Below are positions 11,252 to 50,900 of a stretch of DNA of 64,000 bases, piece after piece; position 1 is the first letter of the stretch; each line of letters opens with the position of its first letter. This DNA comes from Silvibacterium bohemicum (GTDB lineage Bacteria > Acidobacteriota > Terriglobia > Terriglobales > Acidobacteriaceae). Position numbers and translations under genes: made by a program. Under the pieces are notes generated by a model. The model saw only the letters and a program-made list of their open reading frames with translations. It was not told where the DNA came from and did not search any database. Where the stretch lies: NCBI RefSeq assembly GCF_001006305.1, contig NZ_LBHJ01000003.1, positions 496,001 to 560,000 of the forward strand, written 5' to 3'.

Positions 11252-11580
11252 TCCGTTCCTCGATCTGAAAATATGGTGCGACTGCATCAGCCTCTTTTGC
11301 CTCCCGCGCTGATAACAGCCGGGAAAGCCCGATCGTCCCCGCCACAGGTAAGTGGCACAACAAAAAACTGAGGGCAGCGACGGAGGTGCTGCAAGCTGTT
11401 TCCAACGCAGCTTGACCATACTTCCTAATGATTCTTTAGTATCCCCGGTGTGAAGAGATAAAGCAAGGATATCTTTGCGTTAGGAGCCTGCTTCCGGAGC
11501 CAATGGTGCCATAATTCAAGGTGACTGTGCCGTAAGGTTGGCATATAGTAACCGTGAAATCCATCATTGTCTGGAACTAA
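11252..11580. promoter_or_regulatory. divergent control region with operator-like palindrome
   Basis: This 329-bp gap separates the SIS operon (-) from the ROK repressor (+). A near-perfect palindrome at 11460-11481 has the core GCAAGGAT-ATCTTTGC, with one mismatched pair in the central 16 bp. It is the best candidate for the ROK repressor's operator. No coding region is apparent in the rest. Confidence 0.5.
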
Positions 11581-30596: not shown

Positions 30597-30625
30597 GGGT
30601 TCCAGGGCATTCCTGGCCCCTTTTT
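30597..30625 (+). terminator. intrinsic terminator after the YVTN gene
   Basis: GGG-TTCCAGG pairs with CCTGG-CCCC around GCATT and is followed by five T residues at 30621-30625. It separates the polysaccharide region from the acidic/basic protein cluster that starts at 30792. Confidence 0.75.
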
Positions 30626-30791: not shown

Positions 30792-31781
30792 ATGGCGGAC
30801 ACACATGAGCACGAGCTGGAAATGGAACTAGAGGACGAGTTCCACGAGGGCGAACTCGAAGGGGAAGATGAGGCTGGCCTCGAAGGCGAGGGCTGGCTCA
30901 GTGCGATCGGCAACGTCGCGGGCAGTCTGCTGGGCGAATCCGAGGGCGAAGACGAATTCGAGGACGAAGGTGAATTCGAACTCGAGGGCGAGTTCGAAGA
31001 CGAATCGGAAAACTGGCTCGGAACCGCGGCCAATATTGCCGGAGGCCTCTTCGGCGAGAGCGAAGACGAGTACGAAGGCGAAGATGAGGACGAGACCGAA
31101 CAGTTCTCGTGGGGCGGCGTCGGAAAGTTTCTGAAGAAGGCTGCCAAGATCGCTGCGCCTCTTGTCGGCACCGCCATTCTGGGACCTGCGGGTGGTCAAC
31201 TGATCGGCAAGGCTGCCGGCGCGCTCCTCAATGAAAGTGAATTTGAGGAAGAGCTGGAAGACGAGGATGAGTTCGAATCCGAGAGCGAGATGGTGCACGA
31301 GATCGCTGCCCATCCTCTTACTCACAATGAAGCCGTCGCGGAAATGCTGGCTGAGGCCGCCGCATACGCTTCAACGGAGAGCGAAGCCGAGGCCATGGCT
31401 GGAGCCGCCTTCGCCACCGTTCTCTCGCCGAGAGATCGCCGGGCGCTGCGTCGCGTCCTGCGCCACATGGTGCGCGGCACAGCTGTGCTCACGCGCATTC
31501 TCCGCCGCCATCGCCATACGCGTCACGCGGTGCGAACTGTTCCCACCATCATGCGGCGTGCCGTCAAGGACCTGAAGCGCCAGGCCGCCAAGGGAGTTCC
31601 CATCACTCGTCGCCGCGCGGCCCGCACCGTGGCAAAACATGTCCGTCGCGTGCTCGCCAGTCCCAAAGCTTCCACGACAGCTATCCGTCGCAACGTCAAG
31701 GTCAGTCGGATCGCGAAGCGGACGCCGAAGGTACGGCGCAGTTACAACACCCCTCGGCGCCGTCGCAGCAGCGTGCGGTAA
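30792..31781 (+). CDS. charge-segregated acidic/basic protein, paralogue A
   Basis: I do not recognise this 329-residue protein. Residues 1-105 are dominated by Glu/Asp with spaced Phe, Leu and Gly (EDEFEDEGEFELEGEF). Two copies of a hydrophobic segment interrupt them, WLSAIGNVAGSLLGES (35-50) and WLGTAANIAGGLFGES (75-90). Residues 106-147 are a Gly/Ala-rich amphipathic stretch (GKFLKKAAKIAAPLVG, GPAGGQLIGKAAGALL), 148-170 are acidic again, and 214-329 are very basic (RRRAARTVAKHVRR, PRRRRSSVR). The C-terminal part TRHAVRTVPTIMRRAV is shared with paralogue B. GAGGAGG at 30777-30783 is a strong Shine-Dalgarno. No signal peptide. It could self-assemble by charge pairing; this is inference. It leads a nine-gene unit. 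Confidence 0.85.
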   Translation: MADTHEHELEMELEDEFHEGELEGEDEAGLEGEGWLSAIGNVAGSLLGESEGEDEFEDEGEFELEGEFEDESENWLGTAANIAGGLFGESEDEYEGEDEDETEQFSWGGVGKFLKKAAKIAAPLVGTAILGPAGGQLIGKAAGALLNESEFEEELEDEDEFESESEMVHEIAAHPLTHNEAVAEMLAEAAAYASTESEAEAMAGAAFATVLSPRDRRALRRVLRHMVRGTAVLTRILRRHRHTRHAVRTVPTIMRRAVKDLKRQAAKGVPITRRRAARTVAKHVRRVLASPKASTTAIRRNVKVSRIAKRTPKVRRSYNTPRRRRSSVR

Positions 31782-31827
31782 ACACTGGTTCCCAACGCCC
31801 GGCCAATTCCGACAAGGAGGATGCACC

Positions 31828-32781
31828 ATGGCTTACGAATACGAGTACGAGCTCGAAGATGAGTTCGAAGGCGAACTCGAAGACGAGATGGAAGGCGAAT
31901 TCGAGGAAGAGATGGAGGACGAAGCCGGCCTGGAGGGTGAAGGCTGGCTGAGCACCATCGGCAACATCGCTGGCAGCTTGCTCGGAGAGAGCGAAGACGA
32001 GTTCGAAGGCGAGCTCGAGATGGAAGATGAATTCGAAGACGAGGACGAAGCGGAGCTGAGTCCCATTCGAAAGATCTATCCGGATGCCATGATGGAGCAC
32101 CTCGGAGAGCTCGCGGCCGAAGCAGAAAGCGAAGACGAGGCGGCCGAGCACTTTCTGCCTCTGGTCGGCATGGCGGCCAGCAAGCTGCTCCCGGTTGTCG
32201 CCAGAGCCATCGCGCCGTCGGCCAAGAGAGCTCTTCCTCATATTGCAAAGGCGGTGAGCCGGGCCACTCCTCACTTAACCAAAGCTGTGGGCAAGGTGGC
32301 GCGGGTCCTTCACCACAATCCGAAGACACGGCATCTGCTGCGCACCGTACCGGGAATCGCACGCCGCACCGTCGGACAGATCGCTCGCCGCGCTGCGCAT
32401 GGCCGGCCAGTCAGCCCGCATCACGCGGTGCGCGCGCTTGCCCGGCAGGCCAAGCATGTGCTCGGCACACCTCACCATCGTGCCCACGCACTGCGCCGGC
32501 ACCATCATCTGGAGCGCAGTCTTCACGGCCGGTTGGGCCGCCGCATGACTGGTGTTCATCACGGCAGGCGTCATCACCACACCGGCCGTCATCTAGGCAG
32601 GCCAGGCTTCGGAGTGGTTCCAGGGCGCCGTGGAGTTGGCGGCGTACCCGGAGTGCATCGGAGAGGCGTGCGCGGGATCGGTGGCGTTGCCGGCCATCCG
32701 GCACGAGCGGGACACGCGGCTGGCGGCCACTGCCAATGCGGGGTTTCTCGCTGCGGCTGCTGCGGGCAGTTTATCCGGTAG
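31828..32781 (+). CDS. charge-segregated acidic/basic protein, paralogue B
   Basis: The protein has 317 residues. The start is fixed by AAGGAGG at 31814-31820, 7 nt before the ATG. Same plan as paralogue A: acidic residues 1-77 beginning MAYEYEYELEDEFEGELEDE, one copy of the segment WLSTIGNIAGSLLGES (40-55), a helical middle (FLPLVGMAASKLLPVV), then a basic, His/Arg-rich half with TRHLLRTVPGIARRTVG, the motif shared with A. The end differs: Gly/His/Arg-rich (HHGRRHHHTGRHLGRPG) and a terminal Cys-rich patch CQCGVSRCGCCG that could bind metal or form disulfides. No signal peptide or confident transmembrane helix. Function unknown. Confidence 0.85.
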   Translation: MAYEYEYELEDEFEGELEDEMEGEFEEEMEDEAGLEGEGWLSTIGNIAGSLLGESEDEFEGELEMEDEFEDEDEAELSPIRKIYPDAMMEHLGELAAEAESEDEAAEHFLPLVGMAASKLLPVVARAIAPSAKRALPHIAKAVSRATPHLTKAVGKVARVLHHNPKTRHLLRTVPGIARRTVGQIARRAAHGRPVSPHHAVRALARQAKHVLGTPHHRAHALRRHHHLERSLHGRLGRRMTGVHHGRRHHHTGRHLGRPGFGVVPGRRGVGGVPGVHRRGVRGIGGVAGHPARAGHAAGGHCQCGVSRCGCCGQFIR

Positions 32782-32808
32782 AGACTTTTTGCGGCCGAGG
32801 GAAAGGTC

Positions 32809-34149
32809 ATGGCAACACTCGCTGAAAATCCGAGGGGAACTACGGTAAAGCCAAGCTCTCGTCCGCAAAAACCGCGAACGAAGCCGGGAACCAATAGTGC
32901 GGTGTTGCCAAGCTGGCTGCGTGCGCAATCGATCAACGTCACTCGCCACGCTGCGGCGCTGCGGCCCTTCAAGAGGGAAGAGTTCGGCACCGGACAGGCA
33001 GCGCCCTCGGAAGGACATATTCAAGTCGTCAACGACCTGATCACCGGTCTGCGCGGCGGTCTCTTGAAGATGTCGCGGAAGGTCCACAACGCCATCGGCG
33101 CAGCGGGCGAGAGTCCCACTTCGCGCGAGCTGCAGAGGGTGGTGACCGGCAAGGACAAGGCTCACCGCTGGGTGCAGGGGATCGAAAAGATCTGGGATTT
33201 TTACTTTGAGCTCTTCGGCCAGCGGCAGGGCAAGTATGGCGACTGGCTGCTGAGTTGCGATCGCATCGCGATGGATTGCTATCAGGCCGCGTACACCGGG
33301 CTGGGTACGGCAAGAACGATCCCGTCTCCTCCTCCGTTCTGCTATATGAAGACCGGCTTCGCGCCGGCCACCATCCGGCGCGGGATTCGCATGAGGAGAC
33401 TGGGGAAGCAGCAAAACCCTTTTCCTCTGATCCAGCTGCCTTACCACCGCCTCGTGAATCCGTGGACGCTGGGCGCGGTTATGCACGAAGTGATGCACAA
33501 CCTGCAGAGCGATCTCGGACTCAGCCGGGATATCCCAAAGCACGTTGCCATGCGGTTGCTCAAAGCAGGCATCCCGCGTTCGACGGTGTCGGTGTGGGTG
33601 CGTTGGAATCGCGAGATGTTCGCGGACATGGGTGCGCTGCTGCTGGGTGGTCCTGAAGTCGTCGGCTCGCTGATGGATGTGATCGGCCGCGCGCCGCAAG
33701 CTGTAATGGCTTTCCGCGACGGCGGTGTGCATCCGACTCCGATGCTTCGCCTGCTCATCAGCGCCGAAATGCTGCGTCGTCTGGGCTTCGAGAAAGAGGC
33801 GAGAGCATATGCGCGGGCATGGAACAAGATCTATCCCAATCCGCGGGCAGGGACGATCCCGAAGAATGTGATCGATACGTTTTCGCGGGCTTGTGCGCTG
33901 GCCGTCGACACCATGTGTTTTAAGCCTTACCCATCGCTGGGAAACAAGAGCCTGTCGCAGGTGATCCGCTTCGAGAAGAAGGATCAGGAAATGATTGAAG
34001 AGGCGGCGGGCCGGATGGCGGCCGGTAATGACCCCGGAATCATTTCGGAGCGATACCTCATCAGCGCTGCTCGATACGCACTCAATCATCGCCTGGCGCG
34101 GCCGGGCGTTATCACGAAAAACTTTTATAAAGAACTGGTCCGGAGATAG
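32809..34149 (+). CDS. predicted HExxH zinc metallopeptidase
   Basis: This 446-residue protein has the zinc motif HEVMH at residues 226-230 in LGAVMHEVMHNLQSDLG. About 40 residues later, NREMFADMGALLLGGP supplies a likely third ligand, Glu269, in an ExxxD arrangement typical of gluzincin-type peptidases. Residues 1-60 are basic and Pro-rich. No signal peptide is visible, so it would act in the cytoplasm or leave by a non-Sec route. It lies 27 bp after paralogue B and 2 bp before the next gene. Likely role: processing the acidic/basic proteins or another partner; this is inferred from position only. I do not recognise the family. Confidence 0.78.
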   Translation: MATLAENPRGTTVKPSSRPQKPRTKPGTNSAVLPSWLRAQSINVTRHAAALRPFKREEFGTGQAAPSEGHIQVVNDLITGLRGGLLKMSRKVHNAIGAAGESPTSRELQRVVTGKDKAHRWVQGIEKIWDFYFELFGQRQGKYGDWLLSCDRIAMDCYQAAYTGLGTARTIPSPPPFCYMKTGFAPATIRRGIRMRRLGKQQNPFPLIQLPYHRLVNPWTLGAVMHEVMHNLQSDLGLSRDIPKHVAMRLLKAGIPRSTVSVWVRWNREMFADMGALLLGGPEVVGSLMDVIGRAPQAVMAFRDGGVHPTPMLRLLISAEMLRRLGFEKEARAYARAWNKIYPNPRAGTIPKNVIDTFSRACALAVDTMCFKPYPSLGNKSLSQVIRFEKKDQEMIEEAAGRMAAGNDPGIISERYLISAARYALNHRLARPGVITKNFYKELVRR

Positions 34150-34151
34150 CC

Positions 34152-34715
34152 GTGGCGCTGGAAACGATTTTCGCGGAGCTATACAAGCAGTTCAAGCGGC
34201 TGCAGGACAACCTGGTCGCGTTGCGGTTAACGGTTGCGGAAGACAAGCCGAGGTATGGCGATGCGGTGCTCGTGGATCGGCTGGAAGACAGCGTGACTGA
34301 CACCATGGGATCTCTCGATCGCTGCCTGGTTGAATCCCGCCTCGCGCAGAAGGCGGTCGCTCTTCCCGACCTCGAGCGCGCCCGGCGTGCCTTGGTCAGG
34401 TGTCAGGAGCAGTTTCACGCGGCAGAGCGGCGGTTCGGTGACGAGCTGGTGTCCTACGAGAGATTGAGAGACCTGGCCAGTTTCGGCGGGGCGCGCGGCA
34501 AAGAGTGGGCTTCGTGGACGGGCAGCGTGAAGCATGGCCTGGAGCAATGTCGCGATCCGCTGGATGGAGCGAGTAAAGCGTTGGCCGCTTGCTGGCAGGA
34601 GCTTGCGGAGCATAGCGGAACGACTTCCATCGTGATTCACAGCACGAATCTCGGGCAGAAGATCGTTGTGAAAGATCCTCAAACGGCGGACGTCTTCAGT
34701 AAATCGGCAACCTGA
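34152..34715 (+). CDS. unrecognised small helical protein
   Basis: The protein has 187 residues, starting with GTG 2 nt after the metallopeptidase stop; GGAGA is inside the end of the preceding gene, so the two are translationally linked. The sequence is almost entirely helical with heptad-like spacing (FAELYKQFKRLQDNLVALRL, LERARRALVRCQEQFHAAERRF), and the last 35 residues may form a beta hairpin (STTSIVIHSTNLGQKIVV...). No catalytic motif. It may be an adaptor or chaperone for the neighbouring large proteins. Confidence 0.8.
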   Translation: MALETIFAELYKQFKRLQDNLVALRLTVAEDKPRYGDAVLVDRLEDSVTDTMGSLDRCLVESRLAQKAVALPDLERARRALVRCQEQFHAAERRFGDELVSYERLRDLASFGGARGKEWASWTGSVKHGLEQCRDPLDGASKALAACWQELAEHSGTTSIVIHSTNLGQKIVVKDPQTADVFSKSAT

Positions 34716-34760
34716 ATAACAGTACGAGCGGGACTTTCGAAAGTGCATCAGGAGGACATT

Positions 34761-35993
34761 ATGGTTGCAGTAAAAAGGACGGCAGCAAAAAGCGCTTCGA
34801 GACGCACGGCAGCAAAGGACGCGCCCAGGGCTCGGCAAGGACGCATCGACAGTTATGTGTCTTTCACTTTTTTCGATGCATCCAGTGGGATCATGTTGTT
34901 TCCCAAAACCCTCGAGCTGAACTTTCGGTCCGCAGACGTGTCCTGGTCTTCGGGAGTACTGTCCTCGCCTGAGCATGGAGCTTTCCGTGTCCCGCTGGAG
35001 CGAATGGAAGATCATTTGGTCGTGGAGGCCATCGAAGAGCAGTCAAGGCAAACGGGAGAAACCTACGTACCAACGACGATCGAGGTGTCGGTCCAGCGCT
35101 TTTGCCAAATCGGTTGCGATTATTTCATCAGCCAGCCAGTGACCTTCGACATGCGAGCCGGCAGCAGCTTCTGCACTCCGATTCCCATGCCTCTCTATCG
35201 AATCGAGCAGTCCGCCACGCTCCGAGTGCGCGCCTACGATTGCAGCTTCACTGACTTTGTCGAGAATGCGAAATCCTTCCTCAATGGCGTGGGCGTGACT
35301 GTAACCGCAGTCACGGTTCAGTCGCCGGGCAATCGAGAATCGCTTTTCACTCCACCGCAAATATTCACCACGAAGACTATTAATGGAGTCGCTGAGATTA
35401 ACGATCTTCCGCCGAACCGTTTATACGCCGTCGAATTCATCGATCCGCCGGGATACATGAGCGACTCACCCGGTCCGCGTCATCGGTATATAGCTGGCGA
35501 TGCAACCATCGAAATGGCGGCTCTTTTTTGCCCCTGCAATCAGACACCGGAGCGGACCTTGGTCTTCGTCCGCCAGGATTGCCCCAATGTCCGCTGCGGC
35601 AGCCTGAGTTTCGAAGTCAACGGGAAGCCGCAATTGTCCACCTTCGATGGCATCTGGAGCGGACTGCGCGGACTCACGGGCACGGTGGGACTGAGCGCGC
35701 CCGGCAAGACGCTCTCGCCGAACTTCATCGATCTTTCCAGCGATCACTCCGCGGTTCTACAGATCTCTGTAGCCGAGAAGACGCAGAAGCAACTGACAGC
35801 TCCGGTGAAGGGACAGTTCCTCAGTGATACAGGGGTTCCCTTTGCCAACCGTAAGCTCACCGTCCAGCTTCCGGGCACGGCGGCGTACACGATCTGGACC
35901 GATTCGCAGGGCTATTTCGATGCGCCCAGCGGCGCTACGGTCGCCGCGAGCGATGACGCCTTCGGATATCCAACCGCATTTCTTGTGAGTTAA
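34761..35993 (+). CDS. unrecognised beta-sandwich protein with carboxypeptidase-regulatory-like C-terminus
   Basis: The protein has 410 residues. The ATG at 34761 has GGAGGA 4 nt upstream; an in-frame GTG at 34743 lies before that site and is rejected. Residues 1-30 are basic (VKRTAAKSASRRTAAKDAPRARQG). The rest is rich in beta strands: SYVSFTFFDASSGIML, TTIEVSVQRFCQIGCDYF, then a Cys pair CPCN and another QDCPNVRCGSL. Residues 330-410 (VKGQFLSDTGVPFANRKLTVQLPG, TDSQGYFDAPSGATV) match the pattern of carboxypeptidase-regulatory/Ig-like folds. No signal peptide. It could be a structural or binding component. Confidence 0.78.
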   Translation: MVAVKRTAAKSASRRTAAKDAPRARQGRIDSYVSFTFFDASSGIMLFPKTLELNFRSADVSWSSGVLSSPEHGAFRVPLERMEDHLVVEAIEEQSRQTGETYVPTTIEVSVQRFCQIGCDYFISQPVTFDMRAGSSFCTPIPMPLYRIEQSATLRVRAYDCSFTDFVENAKSFLNGVGVTVTAVTVQSPGNRESLFTPPQIFTTKTINGVAEINDLPPNRLYAVEFIDPPGYMSDSPGPRHRYIAGDATIEMAALFCPCNQTPERTLVFVRQDCPNVRCGSLSFEVNGKPQLSTFDGIWSGLRGLTGTVGLSAPGKTLSPNFIDLSSDHSAVLQISVAEKTQKQLTAPVKGQFLSDTGVPFANRKLTVQLPGTAAYTIWTDSQGYFDAPSGATVAASDDAFGYPTAFLVS

Positions 35994-36013
35994 AGCAGAG
36001 TTCAGGAGGAAGT

Positions 36014-37255
36014 ATGCCACCAATTTTTCACGGTCCAGCAAAGCCCACGCCGAGTGCGCCGACTCCCATGGCGGACCTTTCCGCCTACCCGATCCTCACC
36101 GAAGAGGTTGGCTATCCACCTTCGCCACTGGCCAAGCCATCCGGCGGTGGAAGGATCGATGGCGGCGGAGGCGCGTCGTCGATCGGACAGATAGCAAATC
36201 ATGCGATCTCCGCGGTGCTGGGATGGAAGCCGCGCAGCGACGACCCAAAAGCTTTTCTCGGTGCGCTCACCCAATCCTTCACGCTGACTGAAGTCGAAGG
36301 ACACGTCGAATCGAAATGGATCGCCCGCAGCTATGCCGTGCAGACCGACTTATCTGGAGGCATCACCGGAGCGCAGGCCAGTCTCTACGCACGCGCAAAA
36401 GAGGCGATGGATCAATCGCTGCCCCTTCTCGACGGCCTGTATGCTCTCGATCCGACTGCGGAACAGGAAGACGTTGTCGCCTATCGCGATGTTGTGCGCA
36501 CGCAGTTGACGCAGCTGGTGGATGAATTCGGATTCGTCGGCGGCCCGAGGGTGCCGAGAGTGAATACTTACTTTGGCCTCCTGCTCAACAGCCCGGCGAT
36601 TTTCAATCCCAGCGCACTTGTGCAGAGCAATTCCGACCTCATCAACGGTAGCCTGGGCCAGCTGCGTCAGCTCTATGGCGTCTACACCGTAAATTCCGTA
36701 ACGGCCGCGCAAAATTCGTTCGTGAACACGGTCGACGACGAACAGAATACGACCAACTTCCGTATCCTTTCCGACTATGTCACCTCGCTGGCGCAAAGCT
36801 GGATCAACAACTACGGATTCTTTGGAGTAGGCACAACAACTCCCTTCTTCGGAACACAACTGGTGCTCATTTCCCGGCAGCTGTCGGTCATCTCCGAAGA
36901 TGTGGACGAGGTCCGCTTCACTATGGACTCTGTCTTCATCGGTCCCTCCGAGCGGCAGACTCTGCAGGTCAACTTTGGCGGCGGCAACATCCTCTTCTTC
37001 GAGGATTTCGCCAAGTGGGTGCAGGGCTTTGTGGCGGATGAGGCGCCGCCGCTCGTTCAGGAAGGCGGCATCTATGCGGTTCGTTACACTGTGGTCCCGG
37101 TGATCACGCAGCTGCAAACGCTCGCGGCCGGATGCATGACCGCGCCGAACCCCGGCCTGCCTGCGGGCTTCTTTACGCCCCGCGTGCAGCTCGCACTGCA
37201 GCAATTGAGCGACGATCTTGCACAACTGCTGACGCTGGTGAGCGCCATTACTTAG
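36014..37255 (+). CDS. unrecognised 413-residue protein
   Basis: AGGAGGA lies 3-4 nt before the ATG. Residues 1-60 are Pro/Gly-rich and probably disordered (HGPAKPTPSAPTPMADL, GGGRIDGGGGASS). The remainder is mixed helix and strand with no obvious motif: KAFLGALTQSFTLTEVEGHV, YARAKEAMDQSLPLLDGLYAL, QTLQVNFGGGNILFFEDFAK, VQLALQQLSDDLAQLLTLVS. No signal peptide, membrane helix or catalytic signature. It lies between the beta-sandwich protein and the EYEFEL-tailed protein with gaps of 20 and 47 bp, so it belongs to the same transcription unit. Confidence 0.75.
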   Translation: MPPIFHGPAKPTPSAPTPMADLSAYPILTEEVGYPPSPLAKPSGGGRIDGGGGASSIGQIANHAISAVLGWKPRSDDPKAFLGALTQSFTLTEVEGHVESKWIARSYAVQTDLSGGITGAQASLYARAKEAMDQSLPLLDGLYALDPTAEQEDVVAYRDVVRTQLTQLVDEFGFVGGPRVPRVNTYFGLLLNSPAIFNPSALVQSNSDLINGSLGQLRQLYGVYTVNSVTAAQNSFVNTVDDEQNTTNFRILSDYVTSLAQSWINNYGFFGVGTTTPFFGTQLVLISRQLSVISEDVDEVRFTMDSVFIGPSERQTLQVNFGGGNILFFEDFAKWVQGFVADEAPPLVQEGGIYAVRYTVVPVITQLQTLAAGCMTAPNPGLPAGFFTPRVQLALQQLSDDLAQLLTLVSAIT

Positions 37256-37302
37256 ACCGTTGCAATGAAGAGTGACAGGGACTGCCATTAGGAGGAACAA
37301 CC

Positions 37303-38475
37303 ATGGCGACAGAGAAAGACTATCAAGGGTTATTTGACCGCATCGGCGCATTACGGGAGCAGGTGGCGAGCCGGCTCTCTTCGGACCTGATTGCCAATCC
37401 GCAACTGGCCGATGCGTTGACCAAGCAGATCGACGACATGCTCGCGTCGGTGCTGGATGCGGACTCCAAGGTTCCGCCGCCACCGGATAAAGGGCTCGCC
37501 GCCCTGGCCGGTGTCGGCCCGGATGCCGCGAAAGACTTCGGATCTACGCGCATCCCGCAGGGTGTCGAGCCTTACGACGAAACCATCACGTCGGAGCGGA
37601 TCATTGCCGTTGGTGACGTGTACTACCTCCATCAGCATGAAAGAATCGGCGTGTTTCGCGCAGTTCAGAAGCTGCAGGAGTTGTTCAAAGCCGGCACGGT
37701 TCGTCTTTCGGATGGCAATGGCGCGTTCCTTCTCTACCAGTTCGATCGCCGCGATGTGTTGCGCTACACCCGTAACGACCGCCTCTCTGCCTACAAGAGG
37801 ATCTTTGGCTATGGAGGAGCGCCGGTTCCGACCGGATCTCGCCCCAACACCGACTTTCACAAGCTCTTCTCACATTTCGTTCACCAGGTCACGTTGTTCT
37901 GGCGCGACAAGCGCATCTCGGATGTGATCCGCGAGCGTGCTTACGATCCCAGCTTCGGCTCCATTGCCATCGTGCGCCGTGCCGGACTCGATCTGCGCAA
38001 CAATCTCAAGTGGCTGTCCTTCGGTCATCTCAACGTGTTGCGCGTGGAAGTGATGCAGCTCCTCGAGGAGGCCTTCAAGATCCTGGATTCAGACGATGTG
38101 AAGCGGCTCTTCGGCGCGGACAACGCGTGGGATGTGGTGGAAGAAGTTCTGATCCGCTACTTCAACGAACGCCTGGTCACCTCGCCTCGCCAGCGCATGG
38201 CGGTGACGGGACGCGAAGTGCTTCGCTGGCTTGCACAGCCGCACATCCTGCAGACCACGCGTGCGCAATTCGAGACGCTATTGCTGGAGATCGCCGAGCA
38301 GTCGGAAGAATGGCTCACGAGTGCGCAGGCCATGGGCCTGAGCAAGCGGACAGGCTCCCATCGCGTGCTGCCGTGGGATCAGACTCAGCCCACACCAGTG
38401 CGGCCGAATATGCGCCAGAAGGCGGGAGTCTCGGCACAGCGCACGCCGGCGCGGGAGTATGAGTTCGAGCTATAA
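37303..38475 (+). CDS. unrecognised 390-residue protein with EYEFEL tail
   Basis: AGGAGG at 37290-37295 lies 7 nt before the ATG. The protein is largely helical: a coiled N-terminus (LFDRIGALREQVASRLSSDL), a middle with FHKLFSHFVHQVTLFWRDKR and SDVIRERAYDPSFGSIAIVRR, and a C-terminal Pro-rich linker. The last residues are AREYEFEL. That tail copies the Glu-aromatic-Glu-Leu rhythm that opens paralogue B (AYEYEYELEDEFE), which may be a sorting or docking signal shared within the cluster. No signal peptide, membrane helix or catalytic motif. Confidence 0.77.
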   Translation: MATEKDYQGLFDRIGALREQVASRLSSDLIANPQLADALTKQIDDMLASVLDADSKVPPPPDKGLAALAGVGPDAAKDFGSTRIPQGVEPYDETITSERIIAVGDVYYLHQHERIGVFRAVQKLQELFKAGTVRLSDGNGAFLLYQFDRRDVLRYTRNDRLSAYKRIFGYGGAPVPTGSRPNTDFHKLFSHFVHQVTLFWRDKRISDVIRERAYDPSFGSIAIVRRAGLDLRNNLKWLSFGHLNVLRVEVMQLLEEAFKILDSDDVKRLFGADNAWDVVEEVLIRYFNERLVTSPRQRMAVTGREVLRWLAQPHILQTTRAQFETLLLEIAEQSEEWLTSAQAMGLSKRTGSHRVLPWDQTQPTPVRPNMRQKAGVSAQRTPAREYEFEL

Positions 38476-38577
38476 CCGGTCTCGAAAAGGGAAGTCAGAG
38501 ATGAACCTTTCCGGAACGGAGACGTTGAAGAGAGCGGCCAGTAGAGGATAGAGTTTTGCCTCTGCTGGCCGCGCACC

Positions 38578-40020
38578 ATGGCGAAGACCAACATGGAACC
38601 GCATCGTGCTCTCGTCTATGCTCGGAAGCATCGTCCCCGATTCCTTGCGGAACTGAAGGAGTTCCTGCGTCTTCCCAGCGTCAGCTCGCAGCCGGCGCGA
38701 AAGAAGGATGTAGCCGGTTGTGCTGCGTGGCTCGCCGCTCATCTGCGCAGGGTCGGGCTCGACCGCGTTCATGTTATTCCCACGCAGGGCAATCCCATCG
38801 TTTACGGATCACGGCAGCGTGGAGCCGGATACCCGACATTACTCATCTATGGCCACTACGATGTGCTGCCCGGTGAGCCGCTCGGCGAATGGAAGACGCA
38901 GCCTTTCGCTCCCACGGTGAGGGGCAATCGCCTTTATGCGCGCGGCGCGAGCGATGACAAGGGCCAGCTCTTCTGCCACATCAAGGCAATCGAGTCCTTC
39001 CTGGCAGCTGAAGGCAAGCTGCCCATCAACGTGAAGTGCCTCTTTGAAGGGGAAGAGGAGATCGGCAGCCCTCATCTCTTCTCCTTCATCGCGCGCAACA
39101 AGAACGCGTTGCGTGCGGATGCCGCGATCATCTCCGATACGCGAATGATTGCGCAGGGGCGTCCCGCTATCAGCTATGCGCAGCGCGGCGGACTACGCGC
39201 GGAAATAACAATCGAGGGGCCCGAACACGAGCTGCACTCGGGCAGCTTCGGAGGTGCGGTTCACAACCCCCTGCAGGTGTTGTGCGAAATGGTCGCGGGT
39301 TTACATGATGAGCGAGGACGCGTGACCATTCCCGGCTTCTACGACGATGTCGTCGCGTGGAGCGAGAAGGAGCGCAGGTTTATGAGACGCTCTGGACCAT
39401 CCGATGAGAAAATTCGGCAGGAAGCTGGAGTGGAAGGCTCGTGGGGCGAGGCAGGCCACACGCTGTATGAGCGAATTACCACACGTCCCGCATTGACCGT
39501 GAACGGAATTGCCGGCGGACACTCCGGGCATGGTCACAAGGCGATCATTCCATCGCGCGCCGTAGCCAAGCTAAGCTTTCGCCTGGTGCCGAATCAGGAC
39601 CCGTCAAAAATCGGCAAACTCTTCCGCGATCACATTGCGGAAGTCACACCGGTAACGGTTCGCAGCTCTGTCCGCGTGCAATCTCCGATAAGGCCCGCGC
39701 TGATGAACCGCAACGATCCGGCAATGCAGACAGCGGCCTTCGCATATAAGAAAGGATTCGGCACGTCGCCGTTGTTTCTGCGCTCGGGTGGCTCCATTCC
39801 TGTGATCAATAGCTTTCAGGATGAGCTCGGCGTGCCTGTAGTGCTCATGGGCTTTGGATTGCCCGGCGACAACATTCACGCTCCCAACGAAAGCTTTCAT
39901 CTACCCACCTTCTTCCGCGCGATCGACACCTGCATCTGGCATCTCGCCGCGTTTGCGCATCGAAGTCCCGACCAGCGCTCTCGTCCCAGCGAACGCATTC
40001 GCGAACGGATTGCCCTATGA
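38578..40020 (+). CDS. M20-family metallopeptidase (dipeptidase-like)
   Basis: This 480-residue protein has the M20 zinc ligands in order: LIYGHYDVLPG (His, and Asp of the HxD motif), YARGASDDKGQ (bridging Asp), CLFEGEEEIGSPH (general-base Glu and metal Glu), SDTRM (Asp), and HAPNESFHL (last His). The dimerisation lid insertion lies between (GGHSGHGHKAIIPSRAVAKLSFR). It should cleave dipeptides or remove C-terminal residues in the cytoplasm; no signal peptide. Its TGA overlaps the ATG of the next gene in ATGA, so both are translationally coupled. It follows the unrecognised cluster by 102 bp. Confidence 0.92.
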   Translation: MAKTNMEPHRALVYARKHRPRFLAELKEFLRLPSVSSQPARKKDVAGCAAWLAAHLRRVGLDRVHVIPTQGNPIVYGSRQRGAGYPTLLIYGHYDVLPGEPLGEWKTQPFAPTVRGNRLYARGASDDKGQLFCHIKAIESFLAAEGKLPINVKCLFEGEEEIGSPHLFSFIARNKNALRADAAIISDTRMIAQGRPAISYAQRGGLRAEITIEGPEHELHSGSFGGAVHNPLQVLCEMVAGLHDERGRVTIPGFYDDVVAWSEKERRFMRRSGPSDEKIRQEAGVEGSWGEAGHTLYERITTRPALTVNGIAGGHSGHGHKAIIPSRAVAKLSFRLVPNQDPSKIGKLFRDHIAEVTPVTVRSSVRVQSPIRPALMNRNDPAMQTAAFAYKKGFGTSPLFLRSGGSIPVINSFQDELGVPVVLMGFGLPGDNIHAPNESFHLPTFFRAIDTCIWHLAAFAHRSPDQRSRPSERIRERIAL

Positions 40021-40862
40021 TCATCGACTGCCATTGCCATGCCGGAAAGGGCGACAAGATGACCGCCCCGTGGAACACCGACGCGCCCATCGAGAGTTAT
40101 CTGCGGCGCGCGAAGGCCGCCGGGATTCACAAGACCATAGTGATGGCCGCTTTCAACACGGATTACGCCGAAGCCAACGCCCGCCTGGCGAAACTGATTG
40201 CCCGCCATCCCGGCCGGCTCATCGGATTTGCCTTCGTGCATACGCGCCGCGACGCCGGACGCATCTTCAAGATGGTCGAAGAGGCCGTTCGCAAGTGGAG
40301 ATTCCGAGGCATCAAGGTTCACGGCTCGGAATCCATGCCGACGCGTGAAGTCTGCGAGGCGGCAAGAGCCTTTCGCCTGCCGATGCTGGTCGATGTCGCC
40401 AGCAAAGCCGAGGTGATCGACATGCTGGCCCCGCAGTTTCCTGACGTCAACTTTATCGTCGCGCATCTGGGCAGCTTCACTGACGATTGGCGCGCGCATC
40501 AGCAGGTGGCCTATCAGCTTGCCCGCTATCCCAATGTCTACTCCGATACCTCCGGCGTTCGCCGCTTCGATTACGTCATCGAGGCCATCAAACGCGGCGG
40601 CGCGCGTAAGGTTCTCTTCGGCTCCGATGGACCGTGGATTCATCCTGGGCTGGAACTGCATAAGATTCGCCTGTTGCATTTGCCGGAGGAGCAGGAGCGA
40701 TTGGTACTAGGCGGGAATGCGATGCGTTTGCTGGCGAGAAGGAGTCCGGGCACACCAGCTGCACTCCGGCGCAACGCTGCGAGTGAGAGGCATTCACAAT
40801 TGCAAATGTCGCCGGAACGAAGCGACGAAAGACCGGAGAGCGAGTGGGAACACAGGCTCTAA
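40017..40862 (+). CDS. amidohydrolase-2 family metal-dependent hydrolase
   Basis: This 281-residue protein has an N-terminal DCHCHAG giving the HxH metal pair, with MAAFNTDYAEANARLAKLIARHPGRLIGFAFVH, IKVHGSES, FIVAHLGSF (His) and LFGSDGPW (Asp) in amidohydrolase-2 order. The usual His on the strand before FIVAH is an Asp here (LPMLVDVAS), so the metal site may be altered. Members decarboxylate or hydrolyse small carboxylates. It overlaps the M20 gene by 4 bp. The last 50 residues (RSPGTPAALRRNAASERH...) extend beyond the fold and look disordered. Confidence 0.87.
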   Translation: MIIDCHCHAGKGDKMTAPWNTDAPIESYLRRAKAAGIHKTIVMAAFNTDYAEANARLAKLIARHPGRLIGFAFVHTRRDAGRIFKMVEEAVRKWRFRGIKVHGSESMPTREVCEAARAFRLPMLVDVASKAEVIDMLAPQFPDVNFIVAHLGSFTDDWRAHQQVAYQLARYPNVYSDTSGVRRFDYVIEAIKRGGARKVLFGSDGPWIHPGLELHKIRLLHLPEEQERLVLGGNAMRLLARRSPGTPAALRRNAASERHSQLQMSPERSDERPESEWEHRL

Positions 40863-40889: not shown

Positions 40890-40970
40890 GTCATTCTGAC
40901 GACCAACGGGAGGAAGAATCCCGAAGATCGGGAATGCTCAACTGCGATTCTTCGCTTTGCTCAGAATGAC
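40890..40970. repeat. imperfect inverted repeat, dispersed acidobacterial type
   Basis: The left part, starting GTCATTCTGACGACC and ending GAAGAATC (40890-40920), faces GATTCTTCGCTTTGCTCAGAATGAC (40946-40970), whose reverse complement starts GTCATTCTGAGC and ends GAAGAATC. Between them is a smaller hairpin CCCGAAGATCGGG. It is related to the element at 2551-2590 and may also act as a transcription end for the cluster. Confidence 0.65.
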
Positions 40971-41021: not shown

Positions 41022-41471
41022 CTATCGCATGTGATGGAGTGCGTTTGAATCGTCGTTGAACGATCTCATCTCCAGAATGCGCGCCACCATTGCCGCTCGC
41101 GAACCCACGCCGAGCTTGGCGAAGATCCTCCGCAGGTGAGTGCACACCGTCCACGAGCTGATGTTGAGCACATCGGCGATCACTTTGTTCGGATGTCCCT
41201 TGGCCACCATGCGCACAATCTCCTGCTCGCGGGGGCTGAGGTGAATCATGTCGGCGATCGGTGGAGGCATCCTCACCAGAAGATAGCGATGGCCGTTGAT
41301 TTCGGTATCCAGGAGAATCGTTTCGCCGGACTCCTCAAGGAGTTTTCCGGTTTCTCTTGCAGAGAGCTTTTCTTGAGTCAGGCCAACCAGCGTTTGCAGA
41401 GCATCCGTGACCCGAGTTCGCCCACGATCAACCTCAGAAGAGATAGAAGCCATTGATGGACTGACAGGCAT
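41022..41471 (-). CDS. LuxR-type HTH response regulator-like protein
   Basis: The protein has about 149 residues from the ATG at 41471; the ATG at 41453 and a GTG at 41516 are alternatives, none with a good Shine-Dalgarno. Residues 85-145 are a clear LuxR/GerE helix-turn-helix: LSPREQEIVRMVAKGHPNKVIADVLNISSWTVCTHLRRIFAKLGVGSRAAMV. The N-terminal part (LEESGETILLDTEINGHRYLLVRM) is a short sensor or dimerisation element; no phospho-acceptor Asp domain is present. The upstream region holds several perfect palindromes, probably its own control sites. Confidence 0.85.
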   Translation of the reverse strand: MPVSPSMASISSEVDRGRTRVTDALQTLVGLTQEKLSARETGKLLEESGETILLDTEINGHRYLLVRMPPPIADMIHLSPREQEIVRMVAKGHPNKVIADVLNISSWTVCTHLRRIFAKLGVGSRAAMVARILEMRSFNDDSNALHHMR

Positions 41472-41954
41472 GGGGAGTTTGTCGATCGCATGGTAACCGT
41501 GTAGGCAGCGCCTCACCGCGAAATCTCAGCGGATGATAAATGTCTAGTTCAGGGTCACTCACCAGGTTAACCAACAGGTGCGAAGCGCCTTTCATGTGGG
41601 TTGAGCATTCGGATCGCTGGAGTTGTAATAGTACTCTCGAAAAAAGTGGTTTTGGTGAACACCCCGGTTGGATTACAGATTCGCAGCGAACCGAAGTCTC
41701 AATGCATTGCCTGTTGAATCGTGTTCTGAACACGATTTTCGTTGCAACTAATATTGGATTGCAACGGTATTTTTATAGCTGAACCTCGACGCAGGCCAGT
41801 CACACCTTTGTGTGACCCCTAAACCGGCTAGCGTGAACAGCGTTCGCGGGATGCGAGACATTTAACGGCGTGCTTAATTACGAAGGGCATGGCCGTTCCG
41901 ATTTAATTCAAAGGAAATTGTACCGGTGCTTTGGGCTGAAGAGCCGGAATGTTT
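41472..41954. promoter_or_regulatory. palindrome-rich region upstream of the LuxR-type gene
   Basis: This 483-bp gap between the LuxR-type gene and dinB contains no convincing gene. Dyads seen: GGTTAACC at 41565-41572; a perfect 10-1-10 palindrome at 41717-41737 (arm AATCGTGTTC); CGTTGCAA/TTGCAACG at 41740-41766 with an 11-bp spacer; GTCACAC-CTTT-GTGTGAC at 41799-41816. Confidence 0.55.
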
Positions 41955-44983: not shown

Positions 44984-47900
44984 CTACCAGCCGATTCCGA
45001 AAGCCATGTGTTCCGGCTGTCCGGTGGTGATGGTTGTGCTCTGGTTGTTGTTGTCGTCGTAGGAGAAGCCATAGGCCAGTCCTCCAACGGAGTGTTTGTG
45101 CCAGAACTGCGCGTAGAAGTTGGCCGGCGTGGATTGGTAGTACGCCGGAACACTCGCCCAGTTCGCAGGATTGAGAAGAACGCCACGGTTGGTCGCCGAG
45201 CAGATCTGGTTTTCCAGCTGCAACTGCTTGGCATTTTCATCCTGCTGCTGAGCGGTGCTGCCGGAAACGCCAGTTGCCATGGTTCCCGCGCACTCCAGAA
45301 TGTCCTGCGTGGATGGCTGCTGCACGAGGAAGGTCTCGCCCGCATTGGCTGCGGCGGGGTTGATCTCCGTGAAGGTTAAGGTCGATCCCGAAGCGGTGCC
45401 GCTGAACTGGCGTCCGTTGAGGGTGAGCACCAGGGGAGTCGTGCTCCACTGCGCCCAGGCGCTTGCGATATAGCTGGCGAAGTAGTTCGCGTTCGCGCCG
45501 CCCGTACCCAGGGAGAGCTTGGCAGGCGAGAAGATGCGAAGGTTGGACATCGTGGGAGGTTGGAATTGCGCCGGCACTTCGCTGGTGAATTCGCTGTCGA
45601 TCTGGGCGATGGATTCGGTGATGCCCACCTGCTGATGGAAGGTGGCACCCGAGCCCCACACGTCGAGCAGCAGCGGCAGACCGAACTCATCGACCTGGGT
45701 GGTGTTGATGAAGATGCCGTTCTGGTTATTGAATTCGTACCAATCGAAGTGGGTGTTGATGTTGGGATCGGTGCCGTTCTGCGGGTTGGGTCCAGCGTAG
45801 CCGGTCACGTTGCCGTTGCCGTCTCCGTTGACCTGTACGTAGAGGGGATTGCCGAGCGAAATATACGCGCGGGCTGATTGGAAGGTTGGAATCTTCAGCA
45901 GCGTGCTCTGTGCAAGCGTGAAGGAGTAGTTGCCGTAGCTCTTGCCGTCCGGGCCGGTCAAGTGATTGGCCGCCGCCGCATCGTTCAGCGTGAAATCGAC
46001 AATCGTTCCGTCGAAATTCAGGTAAGCGAATTTGCCGTTGGCCGGGTCCATGCCGATCACGGTGACATAGATCTGATTGTTGGCCCATGCTCCGTTGGTG
46101 TTGTTGTTGAGGTCGACACCAATGAAGCCGGGATAGATCGTATATCCTGCGCCGGAATTGTTGACCGTCAGAGTGGCAGCCGTCGAATTGACGGTGCCAC
46201 TCGGATTGCCCACGGTGACGCTGAACTGCTCGCCGTTATCGGTGGCAGCAAGCGTTGGAGTGATGTAGCTCGCGGATGTCGCGTTGGTGATGGCCACGCC
46301 ATTCTTGAGCCACTGATAGGTGAAGGGTCCGTCGCCGCCCGCAACCACAGTAAAGGTTGCGGTGGCGCCGACGTTGGCGGTTACGCTCGCCGGTTCGGTG
46401 GCGATGGTCGGCGCCGTGACCGGGCCGTACACATCGAACTCGAACAGGGAGTAGCCGTACGGCGTTGCTCGCGTCGTTCCATACATGCGGACATAACGGG
46501 CGCTGACCGGGGTGAAGGTGATGTTTTCAACTCCGCCCTTGCCTGCGGGTTGAGTGAAGACGGTTGCCCAGTTCTGCGCGTCGGGCGAGACCTGGATCTG
46601 GTAGACCTTGCCGTAGGCGGTCTGCCAGTGGAGGATGACCTGGTTGATCGTCTGCGCCGTTCCCAGATCGACTCTGATCCAGGAGGGATCGACGAAGGCG
46701 GAAGACCACCGCGTAGTGAGGTTTCCGTCCACCGCGAAGGCTGGGCCGTACAACGCGTCGTTCTGTCCGGCGCTCTCCGCGACCGGTTGATTGAGCGCGA
46801 GGTTCGGGCTGGTAGGTGTGACCGAGTTGACGGTGAGAGTCGCCTGCGTGGAAGTCGCAGTACCGCTGCCGTTCGTGACGGCGACAGTAAAGATGCTTCC
46901 GTTATCTCCCGACTCCAAGACCTGGGTGATGTAGCTGGCGGCGGTGGCGTTCGGAATGGCGACGCCGTTGCGCAGCCACTGGTAGGTGAAGGGACCGTTG
47001 CCGTCTGCCGAGACGGAGAACGTCGCCGTGTTTCCGGCATTCACCGTCTGGCTTGCAGGCTGAGTCGCAATCAGCGGAGCGCTGGCTCCGTAGACTTCGA
47101 ACTCCCACAGTGAGTAACCATAGACAGTCGCCCGCTTCGTTCCGATCATGCGAATGTAACGAGCGGTGACTGAAGGAAAGTCCAGCGTCTCCTGTCCGCC
47201 CTTGCCGTTGTTTTGCGTGTAGACGGTCGTCCAGGTTTGCTCGTCACTCGAGACCTGGATCTGGTAGACCAGGCCGTATGCTGTCTGCCAGCGCAGTACG
47301 GCCTGGTTGATCGTCATCGGCGAGCCGAGGTCGATCTGAATCCATTGGTTGTCGGTGAAAGCCGAAGACCAACGCGTAGTCAGGTTGCCGTCGACAGCGT
47401 TTTCAGGCCCCAGTGCGCTGCTCTCGTTGCCGCTCGACGTTGCTGTCTTGCCGAGCGCCAGGTTGACTGCGACGCCTGGGGTCGTGGAGGTTGGATCGGT
47501 CACCGTCAGCGAGGCGGCTGCGGATTTTGTCGAGCCGCTCGCATTGGTGACCATCACGTTGAAGATACTGCCGCTATCCGACAACGAGGTTGCCGGAATT
47601 GTATAGCTGGTGTTGGTCGCTCCCTGCAGGGCAGTTCCGTTCAGCATCCACTGATACGAGAGTGGTCCATTGCCGTTGGCTACCACCGAGAACTGCGCCT
47701 GCGCGCCATCCACAACGGTCTGGCTTACCGGCTGAGTCACGATGGTCGGAAGTACGGGGCCATAGATCTCGAATTCGAAGACCGAATAGCCGTACTGTGA
47801 GCTGCGCTCCGTCCCATACATGCGGACGTAGCGTGCGTTGGTCGTAGAGAAGACCAGGTTTTCAGCGCCACCTGCGCCGTTGGTCTGCAGGAAGGCGGTA

Positions 47901-50900
47901 GTCCAGTTCACAGCGTCAGTGGATGTCTGAATCTGGTAAACGAGACCGTGGGCGCGCTCCCAGCGGAGAACCACTTGTCCGATAGGTTGCACCGAGCCGA
48001 GATCGACCTGGATCCACGTGGGATCTTCAAAGGACGAAGACCAGCGCGTGGTGAGGTTGCCGTCTGTCGCCTGGGTTGGCGGATAGGCAGCGCTCTCGTT
48101 TCCACTGGAAGTTGTTGGCCAGTTCAGCGCAAGGTTCGCTCCTGTCGGAACGGGGCCTGTGCCGAATCCAGTCACTGCGGTGTCGGTGCTGTTAGTGTTG
48201 TCGATTCCCGCAGCGGAGACCGTGAGGTCAGCCACAGTCGAGGTGACAGAGCCGGCCGGGTTGCTGACAGTGACGCTGTACTGTTCGCCGTTATCGGTGG
48301 CGGCCAGTGCAGGTGTGGTGAAGGAGGCAGCGGTAGCTCCCTGAATTGCGGTGCCGTTCTTAAACCACTGATAGGTGAATGGAGCCGCACCGGTGAAGTT
48401 GACAGTGAAGGTTGCGTTGGCCCCGATCGCCGCGGATTGGCTCGCGGGCTGGGCGGTGATCACTGGCGCGGCTGAACCGGCAGTGACGGTGAGTGTGGCC
48501 GCTGTCGAGGTGACGTTGCCGGCCGAGTTGGTAACGGTGACGCTGTACTGTTGGCCGCTTGCGCTGGCTGCCAGTACGGGCGTGGTGAAGACCGCAGAGG
48601 TGGCGTTCGGAACGGCAACGCCGTTCTGCAGCCACTGGTAGGTGTAGGGAGCGCCGCCGGTCGCATCAACCGTGAAGGTTGCTGTTGCTCCAACTGCGAC
48701 AGACTGGTTTACGGGTGGAAGTGCGATCACCGGAACGGCTGCAGCGCCGCCGCCGTTGTTTCCGCCTCCGTTATTCCCGCCGCCGTTGTTGCCACCACCA
48801 TTGTTTCCGCCGCCGTTGCCGCCGGTCGGGGTGTCGCTGACCGTCAGTGAGACTGCGTTGCTGGTGATGGTGCCGCTTCCATTCGTAACGGCCACGCTGA
48901 AGAGCTCGCCGTTGTCGGTATCGGCGGTCAGCGGCGTGATGTACGTTGCCCCTGTCGCGCCCTGGATGGGAGTGCCGTTTTCAAGCCACTGATAGGTGGG
49001 CGCGGGAACTCCGGACGCAGCAACGGTAAAGGTCGCCGCAGTTCCGACGGTCACCGTCGCAGGTTGGGGTGGTGTTTGGATCGCCGGCGGCTGCGCCGCA
49101 GACGTACCCGCATCGCAAAGCGTTGCACCGGGGAAGTTGTTGGTGACATTCCAGGTCGACGTGCCATCGAAGTTGACGATCGCGGTCTCGGTGGAATCGT
49201 TCGGATTCACGGTTGAAGTCCAGCTGCTCCAGACGCCGGGGAACGCGCAGGAAGCGTTGTTGTTGCCGCTGATGCTAAGCGCTTCAGCCTGGCTGGGAAG
49301 ACGCATGTTGATGCTCGAGCAGTAGCTCGCGGCGTTGATCCCGGTGAATTGCGACCCCGGAGCGGTATCTGTCTGGACGGTGCGTGTCCAGGTCAGGCCG
49401 AGCAGGTTATCGAAGACCAGGTTCTGGTTGGAGGAGTTGACGGTAAAGCGCTCGCTTGCGTCGCCGCATTGCGGGACGTCGTAGACCTGGAACTCATACA
49501 TCGAGTAGCCGTATTGAGTCGCGCGCTGGATGCCCTGCATGCGGATGTAGCGGCCCTGAACCGTGGGGAAGTTCAGCGTCTCCGTTCCACCTAGTCCGGT
49601 GTCGTTGGTCTTAGCTACGTTCCAGGTTGGGTTGGTCGCAGGATCGGCGCTCGTGTAGAGAATCTGATACTGCGTCGCGTACGCATTTTCCCAATTGATG
49701 ATGACGGTGTTGAAGGACTGCACCGAACCAAGATCGACCTGCAGCCATGACGGATCGATGCCTGCCACCGGAGGCGTTGGAGCTGCGCCTGCCGTTGCCG
49801 ATCCCCAGCGGGTGCCGAGGTTGCCATCGACCGCGTTTTCCGGTCCCAGGCAATTGACCCCGCTGAAGGGCGGAGCCGTCGTGCCGTCGCCGCACGCGTT
49901 CTGTGTGCTGCTGGAGGTAGCCGGCTTATCCAGGGCCAGATTGATCCCCGGAGGTGCAAGAGTGAGTTGTGCTGCGGCGCTGGTGGCGGGAACGCCGGCG
50001 GCATTGTTGACCATCACCGTATACGCGCCCACATTGGCCGCACTCATCGCCGGCACCGTGTAGCTGTCCGTATTGGAGAGTGACGTGTTGCTGGCAAGGA
50101 TGGTTGTGGCGCCACCTGCGGGGGTGAACTGCCACTGATAGGTGTAGGGCGAAGAACCGGCAACAGTCGCCGTCAACTGCACCGGCTGGTTGGTTGCAAC
50201 GATCTCGCCGATCGGCGAAGTTGTAATGCTTACCGGCGTTGCAGCGTTGACGGTGAGTACTGCCGTCGACGATTGCACTTGGTTGAGGGGGTTGCTGACG
50301 ATGACATAGAAGTTCTGTGTTCCGGCAGCCGTCAGAACCGGGGTAGTGTAGCTGTTTTGCGGTCCGGATGCCACCGGTGTGCCATTTTCAAACCACTGAT
50401 AGTTGATCTCCGGCGAACCGGACGCAACCACCGTCAGTGTCGCCGATTGACCCACAACGGCGATCTGCGACACAGGCTGTGTCGTGATGGCGACCTTGGC
50501 CGGAGCGCTTACCGTAAGCGTGACAGGATTCGACGTAACCGTGCCGAAGCTGCTTGAGACCACCACGGTGATGCTCTCGTTGTTCTCTGCGGCGGTCGCT
50601 GCGGACGTGACGAAGGTGGTGTCCGTTGCTCCCGAAACCATGCCGCCGTTCACAAACCACTGATAGGTGAGGGTGCCCGAGCCGCTAGCGGCAACGGTAA
50701 AGGTCGCGGGAAATCCAATCGTCGTGGAAGTGCTGACCGGGGGAACGATGATGGAAGGCGCCTGCGATTGCACAGGAGCCGGCGGCGTGACGGAGGTTAA
50801 CTGCACAGTGCCGGGAAGCAGACCGGGAGCTGTCGCAGTCACGGTTACAGTTCCGGGAGTAAAGGTGCTGCGCAGGGCGATCTTGGTCAATCCGCCCTCG

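Follow-up and report, generated by a model that had tools for sequence, protein, structure and literature searches.

The subject of this study is a run of nine plus-strand genes, here called g1 to g9, at positions 30792 to 40862 of a 64,000-nucleotide stretch of the Silvibacterium bohemicum genome (contig NZ_LBHJ01000003.1, positions 496,001 to 560,000; hereafter the window). We find that the nine genes are real and form a conserved unit, and that this unit is apparently an undescribed system. A sequence-only reading of the window had proposed an undescribed unit of acidic/basic proteins with a zinc peptidase, and our results support this, as the gene order is conserved and no Pfam, NCBIfam or PADLOC family fitted g1 to g7; an open-access literature search also gave no recognisable description of the unit. 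From the sequence comparisons we tentatively propose that the products of the unit, made in the cytoplasm, build a protein assembly in which hydrolytic and wall-binding enzymes are collected, a reading that we consider possible and somewhat short of probable.

The lack of co-occurrence in other genomes had been set beforehand as one of two results that would refute the proposal, and it did not hold. We find that the order g1-g2-g3-g4-g6-g7, followed by an optional cassette of variable genes, an M20 peptidase gene (g8) and an optional amidohydrolase gene (g9), is repeated in 13 further records, of which one is partial. Eleven are acidobacterial, falling under Acidobacteria, Acidobacteriaceae, Terriglobia or Candidatus Sulfotelmatobacter, and the others are a Verrucomicrobia bin and a Paraburkholderia plasmid. 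A scan of genome contigs with g7 gave 14 loci, of which 12 were kept after the exclusion of L028 and L029, whose contigs end in g7; these 12, the window and the Paraburkholderia plasmid make up the 14 loci compared here, with the identical sequences L009 and L024, and likewise L010 and L020, each counted once. The genes g4, g6, g7 and g8 are present in 14/14 loci, g1, g2 and g3 in all 13 loci that cover them (L018 begins in g4, which is cut by the contig end), g9 in 12/14 and g5 in only 3/14.

The Paraburkholderia plasmid carries eight of the window genes in the same order, with only g5 absent, and its proteins show 66% identity to g3 and 79% identity to g7 of the window. In unrooted trees of g3 and g7, the Paraburkholderia sequence is placed beside the acidobacterial L025 (support of 0.62 and 0.86, respectively), and in an unrooted concatenated tree it stands beside the Verrucomicrobia row (support of 0.85). 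Horizontal transfer of the unit is likely from these comparisons.

The unit opens with two scaffold-like proteins, g1 (30792..31781, 329 amino acids, N-terminus HEHELEMELEDEF) and its paralogue g2 (31828..32781, 317 amino acids, N-terminus MAYEYEYELED, with a Cys-rich tail at its end in the alignment). The description of the two lead proteins as paralogous and acidic-then-basic holds well, with a net charge of -58 on the left and +39 on the right in g1 and of -44 and +38 in g2, and with a C-terminal domain common to both (31% identity in the window). The order of the charges is far above chance, and the acidic/basic split exceeded that of all 500 self-shuffles in 12/12 g1 and 11/11 g2 orthologues. 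In the acidic part, Glu outnumbers Asp in all 23 scaffolds. A stand-alone g1-like protein of 429 amino acids was also seen outside the cluster (L035:6732-8021, G014).

Between g7 and the M20 peptidase gene lies a site for variable genes (38476..38577, plus strand) that is empty in the window and occupied in 9/14 loci, where one to four extra genes were counted in each. The cassettes encode M35-like and trypsin-like peptidases, OmpA-domain proteins and others. Of the 14 cassette proteins of the window type, all but those of L017, L020, L024 and L027:10138 were searched against Pfam; among these 10, PG_binding_1, a trypsin-like domain and OmpA with DUF4056 were found in one protein each, weak M35 matches below the cut-off in two and no match in five. 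By blastp, the HExxH cassette proteins of L020 and L024 are similar to those with M35-like bodies, and many cassette bodies have an OmpA-like or M35-like domain in common; in four cassette proteins, the OmpA-like signal lies below the NCBIfam cut-offs. The cassette protein L016:14721 gave weak PADLOC matches (best E of 0.00049) to Avs1b, to LmuA and to ZorB in its MotB/OmpA-like part.

Two further observations were made at this site. Small proteins of 82 to 95 amino acids with the motif RQRRADYN-RRSGD...IVLWMDE are encoded right after g7 in L016 and L018 and at 9295-9543 in L017, and open reading frames of similar size are found in L025 (11235-11471) and L010 (12691-13023). In L024, a minus-strand frame of 121 amino acids (11233-11598, the same as L009:13607-13972) lies antisense between g7 and the cassette gene and matches M20 with 59 bits, coexisting with an intact M20 gene.

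Many of the cassette proteins start with an ELELEAELExLMxxLxxSDLESE-like pattern that is close to the N-termini of the scaffolds. We counted 17 cassette or cassette-like proteins, 14 of the window type and 3 from the distant loci L044 and L045 described below, leaving out minus-strand frames, frames of 78 to 110 amino acids (L010, L017 and L025), a 225-amino-acid frame in L023 and a 285-amino-acid frame between g6 and g7 in L027; the other frames surveyed are not located in the cassettes. At least two E/D-hydrophobic-E/D triplets within the first 60 residues were found in 10/17 of these and in 0/107 control proteins (g3, g4, g6 to g9, glutamate decarboxylase and LuxR proteins). The 10 tagged proteins have five types of body, M35-like (L016:13134, L018, L020 and L024), trypsin/OmpA-linked (L016:14721, L025:13173 and L044:11948) and three singletons (L016:14036, L021 and L027:10138), and the only similarity detected between these groups is one weak match (E of 4.6e-4) through the OmpA-like domain. 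A tag profile built with one locus left out at a time, its training set omitting three tagless-looking proteins (L016:11742, L017:9569 and L025:11468), ranked a cassette protein first in 6/9 loci. Among the 56 to 132 open frames per locus, the E value was 1e-4 or better in four loci (L016, L018, L020 and L024); the profile was weak in L023 and L025 and failed in L017, L021 and L027. The top proteins in three of the four strongest cases are M35-like relatives, and the best one in L016 is a 205-amino-acid protein with no Pfam match.

Seven proteins of the unit had been called unrecognised or half recognised, and our profile searches of g1 to g7 agree: none was above the cut-off in Pfam or NCBIfam, none of the nine window proteins matched PADLOC at an E of 0.01, and PHROGs gave a single weak match for g1 to g7, that of g4 to a family of unknown function (E of 0.00031). 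The predicted zincin-like metallopeptidase g3 (32809..34149, 446 amino acids) does contain the expected HExxH motif, as HEVMH with a conserved WNREMFAD downstream, and H226, E227, H230 and the downstream E269, which are likely active-site residues, are invariant in 12/12 aligned rows. No profile match of g3 to any peptidase family was obtained in Pfam, NCBIfam or the sequences of solved structures. In an even sample of 396 genomes of the phylum of the window, its own included, at least 8 contain a g3 relative, on a scoring limited to a few top candidates from each genome.

The most conserved of the core proteins is g7 (37303..38475), with 70 to 90% identity to 12 orthologues. Its C-terminus, REYEFEL in the window, carries E-[FY]-E in 11/13 rows, the same type of motif as in the tag of the scaffolds and cassette proteins. 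The conserved g6 (36014..37255) is predicted to be largely helical (mean predicted local distance difference test [pLDDT] score of 65.8), and its open frame is longer in 11/13 other loci. The remaining two genes are g4 (34152..34715, 187 amino acids) and the optional g5 (34761..35993), which is found only in the window, L022 and L024 and whose start we have shifted from GTG 34743 to ATG 34761, with AGGAGG in front. Searches of solved-structure sequences with g3, g7 and g6 profiles gave matches that we take as chance only (best E of 0.014, to a designed protein), and there were no relatives of g7 in viral contigs and none of g3 in a phage collection. The idea that distant g7-like proteins are fusions of g6 and g7 was dropped, as profile comparison with g6 gave nothing.

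The two enzymes at the end of the unit are as they had been read. g8 (38578..40020) is recognised by Pfam and NCBIfam and scores 521.6 against the cut-off of 441 for the NCBIfam PRK08201 dipeptidase family of M20 peptidases, and g9 (40017..40862), overlapping g8 by 4 bases, scores 95.6 against the Pfam Amidohydro_2 gathering cut-off of 26.4. An opposite-strand gene takes the place of g9 in L021 and L022, the two loci that lack it. It is a pyridoxal phosphate-dependent gene (L021:14229-15416 and L022:12699-13781, minus strand), with the BioF/Kbl-like profile checked in L022 only.

In 14/14 loci, a LuxR-type homologue lies no more than 1.2 kb from the unit, downstream and convergent in 11 (with one gene in between in L021 and L022) and upstream and divergent in 3; in the window it is a minus-strand gene at 41022..41516 that matches Pfam GerE. 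We therefore extend the unit to 41516. The originally given range does hold the nine genes but stops short of this regulator. A glutamate decarboxylase homologue is found within 400 bp upstream, on the same strand as g1, in 6/13 loci (L016, L017, L020, L021, L022 and L024); that of L020, the only one put to NCBIfam, scored 590.6 against a cut-off of 380.4.

More distant relatives show parts of the same arrangement. L044 and L045, from other families of the Acidobacteriota, encode in order an acidic/basic scaffold, a g3-like zincin, a g7-like protein (matching the g7 profile at 1.4e-7 and 2.1e-5, respectively) and a cassette-like protein. The two scaffolds share 37% identity with one another and are not clearly similar to g1 or g2. 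The cassette-like gene of L045 is OmpA-containing, and the next gene in L044 is trypsin-like; this trypsin-like protein and a second protein of L044 both have RFE-ELADLE near the start. Weak g7 relatives are found on Tolypothrix and Burkholderia pyrrocinia plasmids, clustered with S8 peptidase genes, and in Paraburkholderia phymatum the genes for a GEYQ-repeat protein, a g3-like zincin, a 546-amino-acid protein and a g9-like enzyme stand in a row. Searched against plasmids, the P. phymatum scaffold found only itself, perhaps because such sequences are masked by the low-complexity filter. The genes of other distant g3 relatives are clustered with CHAT-domain genes (L006, L008 and L048), so this zincin family is used more widely.

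Some of these regions are described here for their own sake. On the Bradyrhizobium quebecense plasmid L006 (8076-24957), the g3-like zincin gene is surrounded by a plus-strand run of enzyme genes encoding a patatin, DUF2252, two PLD-like and two CHAT proteins, a GMC oxidoreductase and an M4 peptidase. In L048 (1153-10405) and L049 (1294-10895), the g3-like zincin adjoins a CHAT protein (assigned by Pfam in L048 alone) and a protein of 1870 to 1975 amino acids, which in L048 has no Pfam match. In L046 (6605-13880, G122), two SPFL-motif proteins with no Pfam match are encoded near a g3-like zincin.

Taken as a mechanism, our proposal is that the acidic half, the basic half and the alternating strands of g1 and g2 would let them join into a particle, fibre or condensate, with g7, g3, g4 and g6 as the core of the assembly. 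The tagged cassette enzymes would co-assemble as clients, g3 may trim the scaffold or the clients, and the M20 peptidase and amidohydrolase could act on the released peptides or substrates. The cassette and the Glu-rich tag on many of its proteins point to a scaffold with its clients and not to a precursor whose pieces are recycled. With its family-less proteins and, in most relatives, added digestive enzymes, many of them tagged, the unit may be an undescribed route of enzyme assembly or loading. The OmpA-like domains of the cassette proteins suggest action at peptidoglycan, and the excess of Glu over Asp and the neighbouring glutamate decarboxylase suggest that the assembly may depend on pH. 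A bolder version, in which the unit would be a transferable protein organelle or released particle, with a pH-switched scaffold of Glu/hydrophobic strands, a short code recruiting hydrolases and peptidoglycan binders and the zincin and g7 as parts for maturation and core, is in our judgement rather unlikely.

Several of our results weigh against this proposal. Since 12/14 loci were found through g7, the co-occurrence counts are conditional on that gene, and the unit is rare in the phylum, with the g1/g2 domain found in at least 2 of 396 genomes, that of the window included, on a scoring of the 10 top candidates from each genome. Five of the 14 loci (the window, L005, L019, L022 and L026) are free of cassettes, and 7/17 cassette proteins fall below the tag threshold. 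The tag was seen first and the threshold chosen afterwards, and the start codons of L023, L024, L025:13173 and L044:12820 were picked by eye. When the first 60 residues of each cassette protein were shuffled against themselves, the fraction was below 0.05 for 9/17 and 8/17 failed; only 8/12 g1 and 6/11 g2 proteins passed the same test, and neither the scaffold of P. phymatum nor that of L035 did. As so many scaffolds fail their own shuffles, part of the tag pattern follows from a Glu-rich composition. The tag of the M35-like proteins may also be shared by descent, and a tag search elsewhere in the genome of the window gave nothing significant (best E of 1.18). Structure prediction does not help the proposal either: the g6 model matches no PDB fold (best E of 0.56), and the g7 model, built from 13 sequences, was unusable (mean pLDDT of 35.9).

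The same genes could instead serve precursor processing and recycling, as had been suggested earlier, with the zincin cutting g1 and g2 between the acidic and basic parts, the basic peptide as the product and the M20 peptidase and amidohydrolase recycling the rest. The constant position of g3 after g1 and g2, the invariance of its likely active-site residues, the basic C-terminal domain common to both scaffolds and the presence of M20 in every locus all fit this explanation. However, it does not account for the g6/g7 core or for the cassette proteins with the tag, and the amidohydrolase is absent in 2/14 loci. We regard it as unlikely.

Equally unlikely, in our view, is a role in self-directed conflict or cell death, where the zincin and the tagged hydrolases would be effectors that the scaffold keeps inactive until they are triggered. 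The clusters of distant g3 relatives with CHAT-domain genes and the peptidases among the cassette proteins would agree with such a role. On the other hand, the profiles found no g1 or g2 in those clusters (L006, L008 and L048), there was no match to an NTPase (nucleoside triphosphatase) in Pfam or NCBIfam among the nine genes, and the PADLOC search of the nine proteins was negative at the threshold given above.

A response to acid or proteotoxic stress, in which Glu-rich scaffolds would switch on protonation as a pH-responsive chaperone or buffer while the hydrolases clean up, is slightly less likely again. It would account for the predominance of Glu over Asp in every scaffold and for the glutamate decarboxylase homologue upstream of six loci, but no such homologue was found beside the window, L005, L019, L023, L025, L026 or L027, and the OmpA-like and trypsin-like domains of the clients suggest work beyond the cytoplasm. 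Finally, a known injection or shell system in disguise (contractile injection system, encapsulin or microcompartment) is very improbable, for although such systems are described as loading tagged cargo (PMC11495950, PMC11866011), Pfam and NCBIfam gave no hit to a sheath, tube, baseplate, HK97 or BMC protein for any of the nine genes, nor did PHROGs for g1 to g7, and g3 and g7 were unmatched in the phage collection and the viral contigs, respectively.

The layout of the locus is largely as first described. The nine plus-strand genes are where they had been placed, the longest intergenic gap is the 102 bp between g7 and g8, and the count of five AGGAGG sites is reached with exact matches ahead of g1, g2, g6 and g7 and, provided that g5 begins at ATG 34761, ahead of g5 as well. 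The claim that Sec signals are lacking was checked by hydropathy only (mean Kyte-Doolittle value over 11 residues within the first 45, with no signal-peptide program), and the highest value, 1.25 for g4, argues against a Sec signal. Of the terminator placed at 30597-30625, the hairpin itself is present (30602-30616), but it is among 8 terminator-like matches compared to a mean of 9.2 in shuffles. A scan for sigma-70-like promoters found none where shuffles give 2.9; with both scans near or below the shuffle level, neither informs on the transcript. The repeat at 40890-40970 does not mark the boundary of the unit, being a dispersed palindromic intergenic element with at least 41 matches in its own genome, its own copy included (query of the surrounding 101 bases, 40 of 90 candidates scored), and it was dropped as a terminator for the same reason. 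Further downstream, the window encodes on the minus strand (44984-53650) a protein of 2888 amino acids that matches GH2, Ig-like, F5/8C and GH64 beta-1,3-glucanase domains.

If the proposed assembly is real, bacteria would have a hitherto undescribed means of collecting enzymes through a simple alternating Glu/hydrophobic code and family-less proteins, present in at least three phyla, and the tag code would predict clients in other genomes. Whatever the mechanism, several unnamed protein families gain a fixed gene order, a set of partners and a testable hypothesis.

Among known systems, the unit shares some features of each of several types. In NTP-dependent conflict systems of prokaryotes (PMC7159879; PMC8195603), inactive zincin-like domains are mentioned in a section of the latter paper. 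The likeness lies in the distant g3 relatives of the CHAT-gene clusters, whereas these systems need an NTPase and an effector in one operon. Neither acidic/basic scaffolds nor g6/g7 are known from these systems. By profile, g8 and g9 are ordinary PRK08201 M20 dipeptidase and Amidohydro_2 members that differ in their fixed place at the end of the unit. In extracellular contractile injection systems, N-terminal signals are described as choosing the payloads (PMC11495950), and the N-terminal tag on many cassette proteins may work in a like manner, but a search of the nine genes gave no match to a sheath, tube, baseplate or loading AAA ATPase. For encapsulins and microcompartments, terminal peptides are described as marking enzymes for co-assembly (PMC11866011, PMC8217296), and the terminal tag on the enzymes of the unit may work similarly; the HK97-type shell protein of the former and the BMC-domain shell protein of the latter had no match among the nine genes in Pfam and NCBIfam, a comparison by profile only. 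Since none of the defining proteins of these loading systems was found among the nine genes, we do not file the unit, from its sequences, as an encapsulin, microcompartment or contractile injection system. Compared to encapsulins and microcompartments, the unit has varied cassette proteins and charge-split scaffolds. Synthetic peptides of alternating charged and hydrophobic residues, such as FEFEFKFK, are described as forming beta-sheet fibrils, and the unit has the same alternation, with a charge that is mostly Glu and that is carried by natural full-length proteins.

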